From the NCBI GenBank assembly GCA_013390905.1, contig JACATG010000001.1, positions 62,001 through 126,000 of the forward strand: a stretch of DNA of 64,000 nucleotides, written 5' to 3'. Both the position numbers and the translations under genes were made by a program. Position 1 is the stretch's first letter; each line of letters opens with the position of its first letter. This document shows positions 14,041-58,644 of the stretch, one piece after another. This stretch comes from Marine Group I thaumarchaeote. GTDB taxonomy: Archaea; Thermoproteota; Nitrososphaeria; Nitrososphaerales; Nitrosopumilaceae. Under the pieces are notes generated by a model. The model was given only the letters and a program-made list of their open reading frames with translations. It had not been told where the DNA came from and made no database searches.

Positions 14041-14646
14041 TCATTTACCGATTTGATTTTTTACCTTTTCTAAAATACTTTCATCCACAAAATTTTGTTC
14101 ATACAATGCTTCTGTAATTTGTAAAATATTTAGAATTGAATGCATCTTTACTCCTAATTCAGACAAAGCTTCATCAGCCCCTTCCATTCTATTAACAATT
14201 ACATATGCATCTGTTACTGAAATATTGACTTCTTTTAGTAATTTAATTGCATTTACAATTGAACCCCCAGTAGTTGCAACATCATCAATCATAATCACTT
14301 TCATTCCTTCATGAATTTTTCCTTCAACTGATTTTGAAGTTCCATAATCTTTTGGTTTACTTCTTACATAGATTAGTGGTTTGACAGTTTCTATAGCTAA
14401 TGCTGATGCAATTATCAAACCACCTGTTGGCACTGAAACAATGGAATCAAATTTGTTAAATCCAATATTCTGCGCAATCTCATTTTCAAGATATTTTACC
14501 ATTTTTCTAAATTCATGAGGATAGCTTGGAACTAGCCTCAAATCTACATAGTATGAACTCTTTTTACCACTAGCAAGTGTAAAGTCTCCAAATTTTATTA
14601 TGCTATTCTGATGCAAAAATGTTGCAAACTCTTTAACAAATTCCAT
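14041..14646 (-). CDS. pyrE: Orotate phosphoribosyltransferase
   Basis: 201 residues. The PRPP-binding motif 'VMIDDVATTGGS' and the N-terminal 'FGDFTLASGKKSSYYVDLR' identify OPRTase, which converts orotate and PRPP to OMP in pyrimidine synthesis. Full length for the family. Stands alone between the candidate sRNA and the divergent LarA-like gene. Confidence 0.94.
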   Translation of the reverse strand: MEFVKEFATFLHQNSIIKFGDFTLASGKKSSYYVDLRLVPSYPHEFRKMVKYLENEIAQNIGFNKFDSIVSVPTGGLIIASALAIETVKPLIYVRSKPKDYGTSKSVEGKIHEGMKVIMIDDVATTGGSIVNAIKLLKEVNISVTDAYVIVNRMEGADEALSELGVKMHSILNILQITEALYEQNFVDESILEKVKNQIGK

Positions 14647-14696: not shown

Positions 14697-15779
14697 ATGC
14701 CTGAAATTTGGTTAAATTATGGAATTACAGACGTTGTTTTAGATATAAGAGCCGAGAATTTAGAACAAAAAATTGATTCTGAAGGAAAAATTTTGGAAGA
14801 TTCAGTGATTAATGAAAAACTTAACACACTTGATTTATCCAAACCAATGGAACTTGTAGTTTTACATAATTCCAAATCTATTCAAAAAATCATTTCATCA
14901 CTATTTACTTTATGTGAACAAAAATCAAAACCATTTCCAAAAATTTTAGCTGATAAAAAAATCCTGAATTTAGTCAAAGCAGGATTACCTGAAGGAAGTT
15001 CAATCAATGAATTTGATGATGTTGAAATTTCAAATTCAAATCTTGTATTCATTGCTGAAATGGAATTTGATGGATTATTTGGTTATGAAACCATTTCAAC
15101 TCGTCTGATCAAAAAATTTGGTTTAGAATCTATGCTTTCAGCATATGCAAAAAGACAAGGAAATCTTCCTACTCCTGGACAATACCCTGAAAGTTTGGAA
15201 GAATCCAAAAAATTTACCAATAATTTTGAAATTCAAGGAATTGAAATAGTTGCAAATTCTGAAGGTATAATTGATTTTTCTATAGGCCATCCTTCTGAAA
15301 CTCTTTCTGAAACAAAAATTATGGAATCACATTCAATCAAAGATATAGATCACCACAAAACTATGGTAATTAGTACTGGAAAAGATTCAAGTAATGACAA
15401 TCTTGGAAAATCACTCTCTTCACTCTGGAATTGTGCAAATGCCATCAAAAAAGACGGTCTTGCTATTTTAGTAGCTGAATGTAAAAGTGGTTTAGGTTCT
15501 GATGCAATTCAACAATACATTGAAGGTAGATTAACTTTAGAACAACTTGAAAATCCTATCAAATACATTAGTGGAATGGAAGACTTGTTATTTCTTTCAC
15601 AAGTCCAAAAGAATTTTCAAATTTGTTTAGTTTCTATTCTTCCTGAATTTTATGCCAAGAAACTTAACATGATTTCTTTACAAGGAATTAAGTATTCTCT
15701 GGATTATATTCTTAAAACACAAGGTACGAAACAAAAAGTTGTAGTAGTTACAGATGGTGCTAGACTTTTGTTAAGGTAA
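14697..15779 (+). CDS. Divergent LarA-like (DUF2088) protein
   Basis: 360 residues. The N-terminus ('LNYGITDVVLDIRAENL') resembles the opening of lactate racemase LarA, and the C-terminal half has the LarA-type segment 'DGLAILVAECKSGLGSD' and a closing 'VVVTDGARLLLR'. In between I cannot find the Lys that anchors the nickel-pincer cofactor or the active-site His residues: the region that should read like 'SHFFAGFSGG' is 'DGLFGYETIS'. So the fold is likely LarA, but racemase activity is doubtful. The cofactor genes larB, larC and larE lie 38-43 kb downstream in this window. Overlaps the M50 gene by 9 bp tail to tail. Confidence 0.5.
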   Translation: MPEIWLNYGITDVVLDIRAENLEQKIDSEGKILEDSVINEKLNTLDLSKPMELVVLHNSKSIQKIISSLFTLCEQKSKPFPKILADKKILNLVKAGLPEGSSINEFDDVEISNSNLVFIAEMEFDGLFGYETISTRLIKKFGLESMLSAYAKRQGNLPTPGQYPESLEESKKFTNNFEIQGIEIVANSEGIIDFSIGHPSETLSETKIMESHSIKDIDHHKTMVISTGKDSSNDNLGKSLSSLWNCANAIKKDGLAILVAECKSGLGSDAIQQYIEGRLTLEQLENPIKYISGMEDLLFLSQVQKNFQICLVSILPEFYAKKLNMISLQGIKYSLDYILKTQGTKQKVVVVTDGARLLLR

Positions 15780-16946
15780 AATACTAGACCAAAAACCTGA
15801 TGGTAATGGTGCGCACAAAACTGCTAATACCACGATTCCAATGTATGCAAATTTTCTGTTTCTTGAAAGTGGTGAAATATCATCCAATGGGGATGCACTA
15901 GGACTTCTTGAACTCATTATTAGAATTAATATTGCCATTAACCAATAATTTAACAAAACAAGAATTGCCATACTTCCATAAGTTGCATATCTGTGCATCT
16001 TTTGACCTAGTAAAGTTCTTGCCATATGACCTCCATCTAATTGCCATGCTGGAAGTAAATTCAAAAACGTAATTAAAAATCCAATCCAAGCTGCAAACAT
16101 AATGGGAGTCATAATAACTTGATACCCAGCTCCTCCTTTGCCGAACATTGCCAAACTAGCAGACATTAACAATGGTTCTCCTTGACTCCATTCCATCAAT
16201 CTATTTTCAGCAAATAATTCTGCAGCAACTGCTTGTTCTATAACTGGTGCAGTATATGCTCCATAAATTGAAACTATTACTGCAATTACTAATCCTGCAA
16301 TAGGACCTGCAATAGCAACATCAAATAAAATTTCTCGATTAATAGTCAATCCTTTTGATTGGATAAATGCACCAAATGTTGGAATGCCGAGTATAGGCAA
16401 TCCTGGAATAAAGTAAGGCCAAGTTGTTTTTAGCTTATGTGCTTTAGCAGCAACAATATGACCAAGCTCATGAACCCCTAAAATTCCTAACAGTGATAAT
16501 GTATAGATTCCTGCTATCTCTAGAGGATCTCCAATCTCTACAATTGAATTTGTTCCATACGTTCTATAATATCCATCAATCATCACAAATGAAATGACAA
16601 TGACAAACAAAATTCGAGGAGTCCATGTATTGCTCAACCACTTTCTCTGTTTTTTTACAGCAAATTTTTGAATGATGATGAATTTTGCACCCTCTATTTC
16701 TTGTAATTTACATACATAACTCATATTTTCTAACTTTCTTGCTAAATCCACAAACTTTGATTTGAACTCCAAATCTTCAATTTTAAATTCTAATGAAAAT
16801 TCTGCTTTTGTAAAATCGCTGACCTCAAATATGGAATTGACTAGGGAAATAATTCCTTCTTGTGCGTTCTCTTCCATCTTTTTAAGACTAAATCTTTCCA
16901 TTAAATGGCTTTCTGGTTTAAAATTAAATATTGATATACGTATCAT
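15771..16946 (-). CDS. M50 family membrane zinc metalloprotease (site-2 protease-like)
   Basis: 391 residues. A soluble N-terminal domain (~100 residues) precedes about seven membrane helices. The zinc motif H159-E160-x2-H163 (VHELGH) lies in a helix, and the third ligand is in 'NLLPAWQLDGGH', the NxxPxxxxDGG motif of site-2 proteases. Such enzymes cut membrane-bound regulators within the bilayer; the substrate is unknown. Its ATG is 6 bp from that of the divergent acetyltransferase gene. Confidence 0.88.
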   Translation of the reverse strand: MIRISIFNFKPESHLMERFSLKKMEENAQEGIISLVNSIFEVSDFTKAEFSLEFKIEDLEFKSKFVDLARKLENMSYVCKLQEIEGAKFIIIQKFAVKKQRKWLSNTWTPRILFVIVISFVMIDGYYRTYGTNSIVEIGDPLEIAGIYTLSLLGILGVHELGHIVAAKAHKLKTTWPYFIPGLPILGIPTFGAFIQSKGLTINREILFDVAIAGPIAGLVIAVIVSIYGAYTAPVIEQAVAAELFAENRLMEWSQGEPLLMSASLAMFGKGGAGYQVIMTPIMFAAWIGFLITFLNLLPAWQLDGGHMARTLLGQKMHRYATYGSMAILVLLNYWLMAILILIMSSRSPSASPLDDISPLSRNRKFAYIGIVVLAVLCAPLPSGFWSSILP

Positions 16947-16951
16947 ATTTC

Positions 16952-17449
16952 ATGCAAGTAATTCTTAGAGAATTAGGTAACTGTAGTATAAGACGAGCAG
17001 AAATAAGCGATCTGATTCCTATAATGGAAATTAATTTGAAGACACTTCCTGAGCACTATTCTGATTATTTCTATGAAAGCTTACTTGCAGAAATTCCTGA
17101 GGCATTTATAGTTGCAGAAATTGGAGGAAAATATGTTGGTTATATTATGTGTAAAACTGAATATGGTTTTTCTAATTTTAAGAAATTAGGTTTTGTCAAA
17201 AAAGGCCACATGGTATCTGTTGCAGTTCTTGATGATTATAGAAAGAAAGGAATTGGACGAGTACTTGTTGAAGAATCCATCAAGGGCATAAAATTAAAAA
17301 AATGTGATGAATTCCACCTTGAAGTACGATGTAGTAATAATGAGGCTGTGAGAATGTATGAAAAACTTGGATTTGTTATTAGACAACAACTAAATGCTTA
17401 CTATCGAGATGGTGAAGATGCATATCTCATGGCAATTGAATTTAATTAG
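16952..17449 (+). CDS. RimI-like GNAT N-acetyltransferase (protein N-terminal acetylation)
   Basis: 165 residues from ATG 16952. The acetyl-CoA loop is 'VLDDYRKKGIGRVLVEES' and the C-terminal 'NNEAVRMYEKLGFVIRQQLNAYYRDGEDAYLM' matches RimI/NAA10-type enzymes that acetylate protein N-termini. A TTG at 16931 in frame would put the start inside the divergent M50 gene; an AT-rich TATA-like stretch (TTAAATATT, ~16923-16931) about 25 nt before ATG 16952 favours the later start. Confidence 0.85.
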   Translation: MQVILRELGNCSIRRAEISDLIPIMEINLKTLPEHYSDYFYESLLAEIPEAFIVAEIGGKYVGYIMCKTEYGFSNFKKLGFVKKGHMVSVAVLDDYRKKGIGRVLVEESIKGIKLKKCDEFHLEVRCSNNEAVRMYEKLGFVIRQQLNAYYRDGEDAYLMAIEFN

Positions 17450-22680: not shown

Positions 22681-24357
22681 ATGATCAATATGGGACTTAA
22701 TTATTATCAAATTAAGAAAAATATTCTTAGAGCCCGTAAGTTAGTGATTAAGGCAACTAATATTGCCGGTTCGGGGCATCCTGGGGGTTCTTTCTCTATG
22801 GCAGAAATATTAGGTTGTTTATTTTACAAATATCTGAAATTTGATCCTAATAATCCTCAGTGGGAAGACCGGGATCGTTTAGTTTTATCTAAAGGTCATG
22901 CTGCTCCTGGTTTGTTTTCAAACATGGCCGTTGCAGGATATTTCCCAGAATCTGAACTAGAAACTCTCCGTAAATTTGGTAGTAAATTACAGGGACATCC
23001 TGACCTAAAATGTCCTGGTGTGGAATTCTGTGGTGGATCTTTAGGCACAGGATTATCTTATTCTATAGGAGTTGCACTTGCAGCAAAAATTAATTCCAAA
23101 GATTACCATGTTTACACTATCATTGGAGATGGTGAGTCAAACGAGGGTCAGATTTGGGAAGCTGCTATGATGGCTGCAAAATACAAGCTTGACAATCTTA
23201 CTGCTTTTCTTGATAGAAATTTCATTCAACAAGATTCCTATACTGAAAAAATAATGCCACTAGATGAAAAATTAGAAGGTGATGATCTTTCTGAAATGTG
23301 GAAAGATGCATCACGTTGGAAGACTGGTGATAAGTGGAGATCCTTTGGTTGGAATGTCATTGAAATTGATGGACATAGAGTTGAACAAATTGACACTGCC
23401 ATTGCAAAAGCAAATGCAACAAAAGGAATTCCTACTATGATAATATCAAGAACAATTAAAGGTAAATCCGTAGAACACATGGAGGATAATCCACAATGGC
23501 ATGGAAAAGCTCCTGACTCTGATGTAGTTCCTATAATTAATCATGAATTGGATTCACAATTCATGATTGCTCCGTCTATTATTGCCGGAGATATGACAAA
23601 TCTGGCAAATGAAATTAAAAGATGTGTTTCTAGTAGAGCCGATTATATTCATCTTGATGTGATGGATGGTCAATTCGTTCCAAACAAAACTTTTAATCAT
23701 GACAAAGTCAAAGAGCTAAGACATCTTACTGTAATTCCATTTGATTTACACTTAATGATAAATGAACCCGTGAAACATGTTACAGATTACATTGATGCAG
23801 GTAGTGACATTATTACAGTTCATGCTGAAGTAACTGATGAATCTAGTTTTGGAGAAATTCATGATTTACTAAAACAAAATCAAGTTGGTGTAGGCTTTGC
23901 AATAAATCCTGATACTGAATTACCTGAATGGTCTTACAAATTCTTATCTTCACTTGATCAATTAATTGTAATGTCTGTGGTTCCTGGAAAATCTGGTCAG
24001 AAATTCATTGAAGAAACACACGCAAAGATAGTTAGATTGAATTCTATTTTAAAGAAACACAATTTTTCAGGCTATATTGAGGCTGATGGAGGAGTAAATC
24101 TTGAAAATATTGGCTCACTTTTTGCAGATGGTGCTCGTGTATTTGTTGGAGGGGGTGCCATTATTGGACAGCAAGATGTACGAGCAGCAATTAGAGACTT
24201 TAGAACTGAGGTTTTAAAATCTAGAAGAAGTATTTTGCTTGATAAAGCCAACGAATTAGGCGGATCTGATTTAGTAAACAAATGGATTAGTTTGCATATT
24301 GTAGGAGAAAAACAAGAACAAATTAAAAAAATTGCACAGGAGGCAGGATACATTTGA
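22681..24357 (+). CDS. Fusion of transketolase N-terminal subunit and ribulose-phosphate 3-epimerase
   Basis: 558 residues. Residues 1-~290 are the transketolase TPP-binding half: GSGHPGGSFS, and the TPP motif GDGESNEGQ ... DRN. From M295 ('MIAPSIIAGD') to ~510 is a complete ribulose-5-phosphate 3-epimerase with its catalytic and metal residues (HLDVMDGQFVPN, DLHLM, ADGG). The glycine loop is altered (MSVVPGKSGQKF). A ~48-residue helical tail follows. The frame is open across the junction, so this is a true fusion. It joins two consecutive steps of the non-oxidative pentose phosphate pathway. Start ATG 22681 or ATG 22690. Confidence 0.93.
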   Translation: MINMGLNYYQIKKNILRARKLVIKATNIAGSGHPGGSFSMAEILGCLFYKYLKFDPNNPQWEDRDRLVLSKGHAAPGLFSNMAVAGYFPESELETLRKFGSKLQGHPDLKCPGVEFCGGSLGTGLSYSIGVALAAKINSKDYHVYTIIGDGESNEGQIWEAAMMAAKYKLDNLTAFLDRNFIQQDSYTEKIMPLDEKLEGDDLSEMWKDASRWKTGDKWRSFGWNVIEIDGHRVEQIDTAIAKANATKGIPTMIISRTIKGKSVEHMEDNPQWHGKAPDSDVVPIINHELDSQFMIAPSIIAGDMTNLANEIKRCVSSRADYIHLDVMDGQFVPNKTFNHDKVKELRHLTVIPFDLHLMINEPVKHVTDYIDAGSDIITVHAEVTDESSFGEIHDLLKQNQVGVGFAINPDTELPEWSYKFLSSLDQLIVMSVVPGKSGQKFIEETHAKIVRLNSILKKHNFSGYIEADGGVNLENIGSLFADGARVFVGGGAIIGQQDVRAAIRDFRTEVLKSRRSILLDKANELGGSDLVNKWISLHIVGEKQEQIKKIAQEAGYI

Positions 24358-53639: not shown

Positions 53640-54413
53640 TCATTTTTTTCTGATAGATCTGTTTGCAATATTTGCTGCAATTCCACCTGCTGCAATTCCA
53701 TTATCTATATTCACCACCGATAATCCTAATGAACAGCTTTGAAGCATTGATGCAAGGGCAGCTATGCCTTTTGCTCCGTATCCATATCCTACTGATGTTG
53801 GGATTCCTATGATTGGAATATCAACCATAGTCGATACAAGTGTAGCCAAAGCACCTTCCATTCCTGCAGCCACTATAATACAATCCACATCTTCTTCTAT
53901 CATTTCTTTCAAAATTGGAAAAATTCTATGAATACCTGCAACCCCTACATCATAACTTATAATACATTTACAGTTCATCGCCTCACACATTAACCTGGAT
54001 TCTTCTGCTACTCCAATGTCTGATGTGCCAGCAGTGAGTATTCCTACTTTTCCTCCATGAAATTTTATAGGTTTTTTAAATAACAATAATGCTGATGATT
54101 TTTTTCCAGTCTTTATTTTTACTTTTAGTTTCTTTGCAAATGTTTGAATTTTTGGATAGTCTTTTTTCTTAATTCTAGAGATCATTACTGAGTTAGCTTT
54201 TTCTAGAGTTCTTTTAATAATTTTTTTAATTTCATCTAGTTCTTTAGTTTCGGCAAAAATTATTTCTGGAATGCCTCTTCTTTTTCTTCTGTTTATGTCA
54301 ATTTTGGCAAATCCCTCTACTTCTTCAATAGAATATAACGAAAGAAGCTTTTTTGCATTATCAACTGAAATTTTTCCTTCTTTCAATGATTCCAAAATTT
54401 CATAAATTTCCAA
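53640..54413 (-). CDS. larB: Nickel-pincer cofactor biosynthesis protein LarB
   Basis: 257 residues starting with TTG. N-terminal ~110 residues then a PurE-like domain: 'GGKVGILTAGTSDIGVAEE', 'ISYDVGVAGIHRI', 'IIVAAGMEGALATLVSTMVDIPIIGIPTSVGYG' and 'GIAALASMLQSC'. This is LarB, which carboxylates nicotinic acid adenine dinucleotide at C5 and hydrolyses the phosphoanhydride, the first step towards the nickel-pincer nucleotide (known). Lies 33 bp downstream of mdh on the same strand, so probably in one operon with it. Confidence 0.93.
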   Translation of the reverse strand: MEIYEILESLKEGKISVDNAKKLLSLYSIEEVEGFAKIDINRRKRRGIPEIIFAETKELDEIKKIIKRTLEKANSVMISRIKKKDYPKIQTFAKKLKVKIKTGKKSSALLLFKKPIKFHGGKVGILTAGTSDIGVAEESRLMCEAMNCKCIISYDVGVAGIHRIFPILKEMIEEDVDCIIVAAGMEGALATLVSTMVDIPIIGIPTSVGYGYGAKGIAALASMLQSCSLGLSVVNIDNGIAAGGIAANIANRSIRKK

Positions 54414-54446
54414 TGATAGTTTTTCCTTGTTTGGATAAAAAAAGGC

Positions 54447-55361
54447 TTAGATCTCAATACCTGAGACAGCACCTTTCACACTCTCTACTCCTTTTTCAAA
54501 GACTTGCCTTTCTTCATCATTTAGGTCTAATTCAATAATTTTTTCTACACCTTTCTTTCCAATTATTGCTGGAACTCCAATTGTAACATTTGAATGACCG
54601 TATTCTCCATCAAGGTATGTTGAAACTGGAATGACTTGTTTTCTATTTCTTACAATTGATTCAACAATTGCAGAAATTGCGTTTCCTGGAGCATGTATTG
54701 TGGCACCTTTTAATTCAATAACTTTGGTTGCAACTTGTTTTGTGTTTTGAACTAATTCATCCAATTTTTCTTTTGGAAGAAAAGATGATAATGGAATTCC
54801 TGAAATCGATGAAAATCTTGGTAATGGTAACATATTTTCTCCATGTTCACCAATTACTAATGCTCTAATGGAATCGCGAGAATGTCCTGTTGCTTCATGA
54901 ATAAATTGTTTGAATCTTGACAAGTCAAGCATTCCTCCCATTCCAAATATTCTACTCCTGTCAAATCCTGAGACTTTGTAAGTGATGTAAGCCATTGGAT
55001 CAAGTGGATTTGTAACTGGAATTATTATGGCGTTATCGGCATATTTTTTGATATTTTCAACTACACTCTTAACAATTGAAGTATTAATCTTCAAAAGATC
55101 CATTCGTGTCATTCCTGGTTTTCTTCCAGAGCCAGCAACAACTACAACAATGTTTGAATCTTTCATATCTGCATAATCATTAGAACCTTTTACCTCTACA
55201 TCAATTCCCTGTTCTGATAACATGTGATTGATATCCATTGCCTCTCCTTGTGGAAGTCCTTCAACAACATCTAGTAACAAAATTTGATCATCTAATCGCT
55301 TTAATGCAGAGAATAATGCGGCACTTCCACCAACCTTACCTGAACCAATTATAGTAATCAT
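54447..55361 (-). CDS. mdh: Malate dehydrogenase (LDH/MDH family)
   Basis: 304 residues from ATG 55361 ('[17 protein letters not shown]', NAD-binding loop). An ATG three codons earlier is possible, but a TATA-like AATTAAAT lies ~27 nt before 55361. Catalytic parts: '[12 protein letters not shown]', '[12 protein letters not shown]' and '[20 protein letters not shown]' (His of the active site). Oxidises malate to oxaloacetate in the C4 part of central metabolism. Between larC (divergent) and larB. Confidence 0.93.
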
Positions 55362-55421
55362 GAAAAACATTGTTGATTTTCAATAATTAAATCTAATGAA
55401 AATCGTTACCTATTAGGCGAA

Positions 55422-55427
55422 TTTATA
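55422..55427 (+). promoter_or_regulatory. TATA box of the larC-larE-nifS operon
   Basis: TTTATA (followed by AGTA) centred 26-27 nt before the larC ATG at 55452. It shares a 90-bp divergent intergenic region with mdh-larB, so the two halves of the lar locus may be controlled together. Confidence 0.6.
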
Positions 55428-55451
55428 AGTATTTTTGATAATTTTTAATCA

Positions 55452-56675
55452 ATGGTTCTTGTTATTGATCCACAGATTGCAGGTATATCTGGAGATATGC
55501 TTCTTTGTTCTTTAGTAGATTTAGGCGCTGATAAAAATAAGATAATTAACGGAGTTAAACAATCAGAAAAATTTTTCTCAAATTCATCAATTAAAAAAAT
55601 TGATTTTCAAAAAATTCAAAAACACGGAATTCAAGCTATTCAATTAATTTTAGAAGTTGAAGAAGATGTTGCCGAAAGAAAAGGCTCAGAAATCAAAAAG
55701 GCCATTACTGATTCTGTCCAAGATATTGGACTTTCAGAAAAAGCAAAAATATTTTCAGAATCCTGTATTGATACTCTAATTTCTTCCGAATCTAAAATCC
55801 ATGGAATTCCTGAAGATTCCGTTCACCTTCATGAAGCATCTAGCATCGATACTTTTGTTGACATTGTTGGTATTACAATTGCTTTGGAAGATTTAGAATT
55901 ATTTGATGAAAAAATTCTTTGCTTGCCTATCTCGGTTGGTGGAGGTAATGTAACTTTTTCACATGGAACTATGTCAAATCCAGCTAGTGCAATTCTTGAA
56001 ATTTTCAAAAACTCAAATTTAATTATTAAAGGAAATTCTGCAAATGAAGAACTTACTACTCCTACTGGTGCTTGTATTTTATTAAATCTGACAAATAATT
56101 CTGTGGAATATTATCCTTCCATGAAAATAGTCTCAATTGGTTATGGTGCCGGAAAAAAAGATTTTGAAACTTTTTCAAATGTTTTAAAAATTGTTAGAGG
56201 TTCTGGAAATAATTTTGATATTGATTCAGTTAAGATCCTTGAAACAAATGTGGATGATGTTTCAGGAGAAATTCTGGGAAATCTAATTGAAAAAATTATG
56301 GAAAAAGGTGCAAAAGACATTTCAATTTATCATGGAATTACTAAGAAAGGAAGACCTACAAATCTTGTATCTATAATTTGTAGTGATGAAAATGTCGAAA
56401 AAATAGTTGATACCTTAGTACTTGAAACTGGTACCTTGGGAATTCGAATTTCTGAGTCTAATCGATTCATTGTTCCTAGAACAATTCATACTGTTTCTAT
56501 AACTTTGAATGGTAAATCTTTTCAAATAAATTACAAAAAATCCTTCTTTAAAGGAAAAACTGATTTTAAAATAGAATTTGATGACTTGAAGAATGTCTCT
56601 AACACAATTGACAAATCAATTAAAGAGACAGAATCATTATTAAGAAAAGAGATTGAAAAACTAGAGGATTCATAA
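55452..56675 (+). CDS. larC: Nickel-pincer cofactor nickel insertase LarC (intact single frame)
   Basis: 407 residues. 'LVIDPQIAGISGDMLLCSL', 'SVHLHEASSIDTFVDIVGI' (His-rich), 'GNVTFSHGTMSNPASAILE', 'EELTTPTGACILL' and 'LETNVDDVSGEILG' are LarC features. It inserts nickel into the pincer nucleotide using CTP (known). In some bacteria larC is split by a programmed frameshift; here it is one frame. Abuts larE: the final base of the stop is the A of the larE ATG. Confidence 0.93.
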   Translation: MVLVIDPQIAGISGDMLLCSLVDLGADKNKIINGVKQSEKFFSNSSIKKIDFQKIQKHGIQAIQLILEVEEDVAERKGSEIKKAITDSVQDIGLSEKAKIFSESCIDTLISSESKIHGIPEDSVHLHEASSIDTFVDIVGITIALEDLELFDEKILCLPISVGGGNVTFSHGTMSNPASAILEIFKNSNLIIKGNSANEELTTPTGACILLNLTNNSVEYYPSMKIVSIGYGAGKKDFETFSNVLKIVRGSGNNFDIDSVKILETNVDDVSGEILGNLIEKIMEKGAKDISIYHGITKKGRPTNLVSIICSDENVEKIVDTLVLETGTLGIRISESNRFIVPRTIHTVSITLNGKSFQINYKKSFFKGKTDFKIEFDDLKNVSNTIDKSIKETESLLRKEIEKLEDS

Positions 56676-57472
56676 TGACAAAACTGGATGAATTAGTAAA
56701 TTGGTTTGAATCCAAAAACAAAGTAATGGTTGCACTTTCAGGTGGTGTTGATAGTGCACTTGTTGCATATGCTGCTTTTCAAAAATTAGGAAATTTAGCA
56801 ATTGCAGTTACTGCTGATTACAAAACTCTGTCTGAGGAAGAACTTCATTCTGCCAAACAAATATGCAGAGAAATAGGAATAAAACAACTCTTTTTGGACT
56901 ATAATGAACTTGAAAATGAAGAATTTACCAAAAATGATTCTAACCGATGTTTTCATTGTAGGATGGAATTAGGAGATCATTTGATTGCATTAGCTAAGGA
57001 ACACAATGTTAGAGTAATAGTTGATGGAACCAATCTGGATGATTTAGGTGATTATAGACCTGGAATTGAAGCTTTAAAACAAAATGGTATCAGGAGCCCC
57101 CTTGTAGAAACAAACTTTTCAAAATTACAAGTCAGAGAATGTGCAAAATCTGTAGGATTATCTGTCTATGATAAACCATCAAACTCATGTTTGGCATCAA
57201 GGATTCCTTGGGGACAAAGAGTCACAGCTGAGAAATTAACTAGAATAGAATTTGGAGAAACAATTGTTAAACAACTTACAAATGTAAAACAAGTTCGAGT
57301 TAGAGATCTTAACGGTAGTGCAAAAATTGAAGTTGACAAAGTTATGATATCATTATTTAACGATGACATTTTGAATGAAATTACTAAAAAGTTAAAGATG
57401 ATTGGATTTTCTGCAGTAGAAATTGATCAGGATGGATATAAACCAGGAAAAATTAATGTGATTGTGGATTGA
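56675..57472 (+). CDS. larE: Sulfur transferase LarE, three-cysteine ([4Fe-4S]) type
   Basis: 265 residues. N-terminal PP-loop ATP site 'VALSGGVDSALVAYAA'. Cysteines C92 and C95 (RCFHC) plus C172 (NSCLASR) form the three-Cys set of LarE enzymes that carry a [4Fe-4S] cluster and act catalytically, in contrast to the single-Cys enzymes that sacrifice their own sulfur (known difference in the family). Converts the pyridinium dicarboxylate to the bis-thiocarboxylate. Overlaps the cysteine desulfurase gene by 4 bp. Confidence 0.93.
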   Translation: MTKLDELVNWFESKNKVMVALSGGVDSALVAYAAFQKLGNLAIAVTADYKTLSEEELHSAKQICREIGIKQLFLDYNELENEEFTKNDSNRCFHCRMELGDHLIALAKEHNVRVIVDGTNLDDLGDYRPGIEALKQNGIRSPLVETNFSKLQVRECAKSVGLSVYDKPSNSCLASRIPWGQRVTAEKLTRIEFGETIVKQLTNVKQVRVRDLNGSAKIEVDKVMISLFNDDILNEITKKLKMIGFSAVEIDQDGYKPGKINVIVD

Positions 57473-58644
57473 TTTATCTAGATAATGCAGCATCAACTCA
57501 AATTCATGAAGATGTTTTGAATTCAATGTTACCTTACCTCAAAGAGCAGTATGGAAATCCATCCTCTCTACATCGTTATGGTAGGTTAGCTCACAAAGCA
57601 ATTGAAAAAGCCAGAAAACATATTGCATCTCTAATTAATGCAGAACCTTCTGAAATTTTGTTCACATCTGGTGGCACTGAATCAAACAATACTGCATTAA
57701 GAGGAATATCTATGAAAAATCCATCTAGTCAAATCATTACGTCTTCAATTGAGCATGATGCAATTTTGGAGCCATGTAAAAAACTGGCCCAAAATGGATT
57801 TGATATTGATTATCTTCCAGTTGATCGGTTTGGTATGGTAGAATTCTCAGATCTAAAAAACCATATTTCTGAAAGAACCAGTCTTGTCTCAATAATGTTT
57901 GGAAATAACGAAGTTGGTACAATCCAACCAATCTCTGAAATTTCTAAAATATGTAATGAGCATAAAGTTCCTTTTCACACTGATGCAATTCAAGTAGTTG
58001 GTAAAATTCCAATTGATGTCAAAGAATTAGGTATAGATTTACTGTCTATTTCCTCTCATAAACTCTATGGCCCTAAAGGAATAGGTGCATTATACATCAA
58101 AAATGGTGTTGATGTCGTTCCTGTCATTTTGGGTGGAGGTCAAGAACGTGGATTGCGTTCTGGAACAGAAAATGTTGCAAGTATTGTTGGATTTGGAAAG
58201 GCATGCGAAATTGCAAAAAACAATTTAAATGCAAATATCTCTAAAATGAAAAAATTACGAGATAACCTAGTTGAAAAAGTATTAAATGAAATTCCTGAAG
58301 TAATTTTGAATGGTCATCCTCATTCTAGATTGCCAAATAATGCTCATTTTACATTTCTTGGAGTTAATGGTGAGGATCTTATAATCAAACTTGATGAGTA
58401 TGGCATAGCAGCATCCACAGGTTCTGCATGTTCTGTAAATACACAAAAAGCTTCACATGTTTTACAAGCAATGGGATTTTCGCATGAACAAATCACTGGT
58501 TCCTTACGACTGACAATTGGAATTTTTAATAATCAAAAAGAAATTGAACAAACAGTTAGTGTTCTTAAAAAAGTAGTGAAGGAACTTCGTTCAGTTTCTC
58601 CGTATAAAGAAAAATATTCTTTCGTTCTAAAATCTAAACCTTGA
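57469..58644 (+). CDS. Cysteine desulfurase (NifS/IscS family)
   Basis: 391 residues starting with TTG ('MIYLDNAASTQIHEDVL'). PLP site 'SSHKLYGPKGIGALYIK', 'RSGTENVASIVGFG' and the persulfide Cys in 'STGSACSVNTQKAS'. Releases sulfur from cysteine as a bound persulfide. Translational coupling to larE makes it the likely sulfur source for LarE, although it may also serve Fe-S or tRNA thiolation. Its 3' end overlaps the convergent surface-protein gene by 11 bp. Confidence 0.93.
   Translation: MIYLDNAASTQIHEDVLNSMLPYLKEQYGNPSSLHRYGRLAHKAIEKARKHIASLINAEPSEILFTSGGTESNNTALRGISMKNPSSQIITSSIEHDAILEPCKKLAQNGFDIDYLPVDRFGMVEFSDLKNHISERTSLVSIMFGNNEVGTIQPISEISKICNEHKVPFHTDAIQVVGKIPIDVKELGIDLLSISSHKLYGPKGIGALYIKNGVDVVPVILGGGQERGLRSGTENVASIVGFGKACEIAKNNLNANISKMKKLRDNLVEKVLNEIPEVILNGHPHSRLPNNAHFTFLGVNGEDLIIKLDEYGIAASTGSACSVNTQKASHVLQAMGFSHEQITGSLRLTIGIFNNQKEIEQTVSVLKKVVKELRSVSPYKEKYSFVLKSKP

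Follow-up and report, generated by a model that had tools for sequence, protein, structure and literature searches.

The only LarA-like protein encoded in the window, as the whole 64,000-nucleotide stretch of DNA analysed here is called, is probably a cofactor-free paralogue of LarA and not a client of the larB, larC and larE products encoded in the same window; judged from sequence comparisons, the probability of this reading is about 0.78. The protein (P0001, here called LAR) lacks the site at which LarA holds the pincer nucleotide NPN. Its gene lies on the forward strand at 14697-15779, with an ATG start, a TAA stop and a product of 360 amino acids; the host genome, which is Nitrosopumilus-like, measures 1.23 Mb and is 98.5% complete. 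The open reading frame which the preliminary description had placed here proved real and exact in its coordinates. The gene is under purifying selection (dN/dS of 0.07-0.15), and a sequencing or frameshift artefact can be ruled out, as the reading frame is also intact in relatives at a dN/dS of about 0.1. The residue pattern described below is fixed and no error, because it is common to all 28 orthologues that were first aligned and is accompanied by these low ratios.

The sole Pfam domain of LAR is LarA_C (PF21113), which covers residues 232-356 (15390-15764, forward strand) with an E-value of 1.4e-5, barely over the cut-off. Lar_N (PF09861) is not matched by LAR, and none of the NCBIfam cut-offs for LarA or LarAH is reached, the best model being LarAH6 (7e-16), which scores 57.8 bits where 500 are required. 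Profile comparisons reach much further. When a profile of 31 diverse LAR-family members was aligned by hhalign with one of 13 canonical LarA proteins, all from Nitrososphaeria, the match extended over 366 columns with a probability of 99.5 and an E-value of 2.8e-22. Against the PDB, the same LAR-family profile (A2) matched Mar2 at 3e-23 and the lactate racemase 2yjg at 4e-17 over profile positions 6-367, which is nearly full length.

An AlphaFold model built from 69 sequences has a pLDDT of 79.5 and a pTM of 0.81, with residues 1-25 below a pLDDT of 50, and supersedes an earlier, poor model from 28 sequences (pLDDT 61). Searching with this model, Foldseek returned 17 matches at E-values of 0.001 or lower; all 17 are LarA-family structures, with a best E-value of 6e-16 and TM-scores by query length of 0.51-0.71. 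By the profile and Foldseek evidence, the whole LAR chain has the two-domain fold of LarA. This bears out the LarA-like N- and C-terminal segments of the preliminary description and extends the likeness to the region between them. The N-terminal signature MPEIWLNYG (residues 1-9, 14697-14723, forward strand) corresponds to the family motif MPEIWLPYG, in which W5 is invariant in 41 out of 41 aligned members. At the other end, E261, G265 and G267 are near-invariant in the C-terminal motif around AEC..GLGS (15471-15500, forward strand), and W5, E20 and P316 are likewise invariant or nearly invariant in the family.

In LarA of L. plantarum, R75, K184 and H200 bind NPN, while D72, H108, H174 and K298 are catalytic (PMC7583248, PMC11770544). 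The columns of D72, R75, H108, H174, K184 and H200 are invariant in the 13 canonical LarA proteins of Nitrososphaeria. Transferring these positions to LAR rests on a profile alignment at about 12% identity, and in far members of the family the N-terminal half aligns poorly. By hhalign and a residue census, H57 (14865-14867) takes the place of D72 and K60 (14874-14876) that of R75, which contacts the NPN phosphate. The position of the catalytic H108 is occupied by L90 (14964-14966), with no conserved histidine close by. The segment E-F-D125-GLFGYETIS-T135 pairs with E-P-H174-FFAGFSGGY-K184 of LarA, the same pairing of DGLFGYETIS with HFFAGFSGG that had been proposed beforehand, so that the catalytic H174 corresponds to D125 (15069-15071; Asp in 29 of 31 members from Nitrososphaeria) and the lysine that holds NPN covalently, K184, to T135 (15099-15101). 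The nickel ligand H200 is replaced by A151 (15147-15149), and on the substrate side Q295 and K298 correspond to K238 and S241 by hhalign (15408-15419; all these codons are on the forward strand).

The loss of the cofactor lysine and of catalytic histidines, as claimed from the single sequence, is confirmed by these substitutions (K184 to T135, H174 to D125, H108 to L90), but the set of missing residues was incomplete, since R75, D72, H108, H200, Q295 and K298 are affected as well. None of the 31 members from Nitrososphaeria has a lysine at K184 or a histidine at H108 or H200. Among 41 members from several classes, lysine occurs once in the K184 column, in L215, which is still without R75 and H200; histidine is found in some members at H174 and in none at H200. 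The loss of NPN-binding and catalytic residues appears to be ancestral, that is, to predate the spread of the LAR family.

The preliminary description had also considered that the true client of larB, larC and larE might lie elsewhere in the genome. No LarA-type candidate for this role turned up: the host genome is without any Lar_N match, and both the LarA_C profile and a profile built from the 13 canonical members of Nitrososphaeria match only the LAR reading frame, so that its standing as the only LarA-like protein of the window extends to the whole genome and no canonical LarA was found there. The same canonical profile was run over 31 genomes, comprising the host and closed genomes, and found the LAR locus only in 23 and nothing in eight, which rules out a second canonical LarA overlooked by Pfam in this set.

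The LAR family is near-universal in Nitrososphaeria, with members in 192 of 200 genomes that are at least 90% complete; two of the eight genomes without a member at first search gave divergent ones. Many of the surveyed genomes are metagenome-assembled, and absences carry a corresponding error. Short LarA-like relatives of LAR also occur in several further lineages of Thermoproteota. In a maximum-likelihood tree, a branch with 100/100 support separates 41 members of the family from the 13 canonical LarA proteins of Nitrososphaeria. Canonical Lar_N domains are found in 14 of the 200 genomes, and the family to which the window belongs contributes only three such matches, all of them with the NPN residues. 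Both counts accord with a report on ammonia oxidisers of deep-sea sediments, in which canonical LarA is restricted to NP-theta, NP-delta and NP-iota (PMC8397731). The gene described there belongs to the same archaeal class as LAR, but it is a separate and rare one. Canonical LarA proteins with all NPN residues were also seen at L144, L145, L151 and L156 (G001, G005 and G008, f13), where LarB and LarC were not found. As judged by eye, three frames of 655-669 amino acids from f7 (L149, L150 and L152) carry a canonical LarA behind a domain resembling acylneuraminate (CMP-sugar) cytidylyltransferases (IPARGGSK...).

All three genes of the NPN pathway are intact in the window. The gene larB lies at 53640-54413 on the reverse strand (NF033503, 245.9 bits, cut-off 175), larC with its LarC1 and LarC2 domains at 55452-56675 on the forward strand, and larE at 56675-57472 on the forward strand (TIGR00268, 264.7 bits, cut-off 150); LarE has the P-loop SGGVDS and the CXXC...C arrangement known from [4Fe-4S] LarE (PMC9283937). 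Between larB and larC, a malate/lactate dehydrogenase-like gene (54447-55370, reverse strand; NF004863, 383.7 bits, cut-off 283) has an orthologue of 90% identity in the corresponding position of a closed genome of the genus (G024). Over 53640-58644 as a whole, larB and the malate dehydrogenase-like gene are transcribed away from larC, larE and a nifS-like gene.

Within Nitrososphaeria, LarC is present in 172 of the 200 genomes and LarB scores over its cut-off in 173. The distribution of LAR follows this pathway only loosely. It is found in 170 of the 172 larC-positive genomes and is kept in 22 of the 28 that lack larC, while in 33 genomes outside the class, which had been picked for carrying LAR, LarC is absent from 26; LAR is thus maintained in genomes that have no such pathway. 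This is also seen in the family f4, which we take to be possibly the Nitrosocaldaceae: LAR occurs in 10 of its 11 genomes, and all of them are without LarC and without a LarB match over the cut-off. LAR and larC are positively associated in Nitrososphaeria (170/22/2/6, Fisher p 1e-4), an association that is confounded by shared ancestry. It is not taken as a functional link because it follows the deep branching, and the presence of LAR in 192 of 200 genomes makes it nearly uninformative. No recognisable LarA exists in 162 of the 172 larC-positive genomes. Any client that larBCE does serve is therefore probably not LarA-like.

The genes around LAR do not define a pathway either. On one side lies a divergent pyrE-like phosphoribosyltransferase gene (14041-14646, reverse strand; PF00156, cluster c3), a neighbour conserved in Nitrososphaeria. 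On the other, a convergent gene for an M50/site-2 protease (15771-16946, reverse strand; PF02163, cluster c1) overlaps the 3' end of LAR by nine bases (15771-15779); among 40 loci from across the phylum, it adjoins LAR in 28, convergent wherever this was checked and with the order kept across classes. It is followed by another conserved neighbour, a GNAT acetyltransferase gene (16931-17449, forward strand; RimI-type by its orthologue), which accompanies LAR in 26 of the 40 loci, again across classes. All three are core genes, which suggests a housekeeping setting that pinpoints no pathway, and an assignment of function from genome context was rejected for this reason. Further along the window, a frame of 558 amino acids at 22681-24357 appears by eye to fuse the N-terminal part of a transketolase to a ribulose-phosphate 3-epimerase.

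The scenario that best accounts for these observations is that an ancient LarA paralogue lost its NPN site before the radiation of the Nitrososphaeria and then became a core protein. LAR would retain a cleft between two alpha/beta domains, its C-terminal half being conserved, and would work without NPN or nickel, most likely binding a small anionic metabolite in the cleft. For ordinary acid/base chemistry, by which it would most likely act, D125 at the old position of H174 and E261 would be the candidates, both being conserved in the family. That LAR is indeed an enzyme which uses D125 and E261 in this way is a doubtful proposition, in which enzyme status, ligand and chemistry are all conjectural. 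The fuller model, with LAR as a nickel-free core enzyme from early Thermoproteota and the NPN still made by larBCE in most ammonia-oxidising archaea loaded into a protein that is not LarA-like, is tentative and falls somewhat short of even odds.

Several other explanations have to be weighed against a cofactor-free LarA paralogue. The preliminary description had allowed that the protein uses the cofactor differently, which would make LAR an NPN client in the larBCE-positive ammonia oxidisers, with a non-covalently bound cofactor, a new set of ligands and a novel hydride transfer. Such a role would fit a protein that is the only one with a LarA fold in a genome with intact larBCE and that occurs in nearly all larC-positive genomes of the class. 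However, no histidine of LAR is conserved in the larC-positive lineages (the best column has 62% His), and the only conserved Lys or Cys residues there, K347 and partly C262, are conserved about equally where larC is missing. Given also that the near-universal presence of LAR deprives its co-occurrence with larC of most of its weight and that 22 larC-negative genomes of Nitrososphaeria retain the gene, this role is improbable, and the alternative of a cofactor-free relative, likewise named at the outset, is supported by the lost NPN-site residues and by the genomes that keep LAR without larC. A non-catalytic pseudoenzyme, acting as a metabolite sensor or structural partner, would be NPN-free as well, so that its share overlaps with the probability given above for the cofactor-free reading. 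The disappearance of every known catalytic residue and the core-gene surroundings would suit it, but the strong conservation of W5, Y8, E20, E261, Y290 and E295 is compatible with an active site, although it is no proof of one; a pseudoenzyme is thus possible but not favoured.

A link to coenzyme F420 biosynthesis, with the LAR family making for instance 2-phospho-L-lactate, is brought up by gene order outside Nitrososphaeria. In f28 and f23/g58, LAR is oriented divergently to cofD and to a gene for an FbiB-C-like nitroreductase (loci L198, L207, L213, L214 and L216). The next gene is cofC in three of these loci, and nine loci have an LLM/Mer-like gene in the vicinity. Co-occurrence weakens this link, since LAR is present where CofD is absent, as in f21 (4/4), f23/g82 (5/5), f23/g113 (3/3) and others, which makes a role in the F420 pathway very unlikely. 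Lastly, LAR might be no homologue of LarA at all, as Desguin et al. suggested in 2020 for the LarAH group 12 that they excluded (PMC7583248). The unmatched Lar_N domain would agree with this, but the hhalign alignment, the Mar2 profile match and the Foldseek results refute a non-LarA identity to the point where it is scarcely credible.

The components of the cofactor-free reading have been encountered before. A homologue of LAR, L218 (E-value 3.7e-96), is the sole LarA-like gene of a genome that has no canonical LarA or Lar_N match and that we take to be Ca. N. gargensis. A LarAH12 protein from Ca. Nitrososphaera gargensis is given as inactive after denaturation and renaturation in Table 1 of PMC7583248, and the same source left out LarAH groups 12, 13 and 16 because NPN-binding or catalytic residues are absent. 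We infer that group 12 is the LAR family. The novelty claimed for a client with an unknown reaction is reduced accordingly: the family has very probably been seen as group 12, and larBCE without larA is known too, as about 15% of the genome set of PMC11796402 carry larB, larC and larE but no larA. What is added here is the fold of the LAR family, its breadth and its independence. The conserved LarA-like protein of ammonia oxidisers is no credible NPN enzyme, and labels such as "lactate racemase" should be dropped from it. Two loose ends of the literature, the NPN client in genomes without LarA and the role of a LarA fold without cofactor, become one testable question, and if NPN is indeed loaded into a protein that is not LarA-like, this would constitute a second class of nickel-pincer enzyme.

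Compared with known systems, LAR shares with LarA and Mar2 (5HUQ, 6C1W, 6D6Z) the fold of the whole chain and the C-terminal motifs (AEC..GLG and neighbours), but it is about 60 amino acids shorter and has other residues at every NPN-binding and catalytic position. The single-histidine LarAHs LarA_Bw and LarA_Sp (PMC12611868), whose class is represented among the Foldseek matches by 9q3k and 9q3j, also have a residue other than histidine at H174, which is Asn in these proteins and Asp in LAR; they retain the lysine for NPN as well as one of the catalytic histidines, and one of them was solved loaded with NPN, whereas LAR is without these residues. LAR resembles LarAH group 12 in having lost the conservation of NPN-binding and catalytic residues. 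Homology to LarA was doubted in PMC7583248, whereas LAR is here shown to have the LarA fold, and while the text of that paper gives no distribution for group 12, the present survey shows how widely the family occurs and that it is independent of larC. The host genome resembles those of PMC11796402 in having intact larB, larC and larE and no LarA-type client; in Nitrososphaeria, by contrast, this situation extends to 162 of 172 larC-positive genomes, nearly all of which carry a conserved, site-less protein with the LarA fold.
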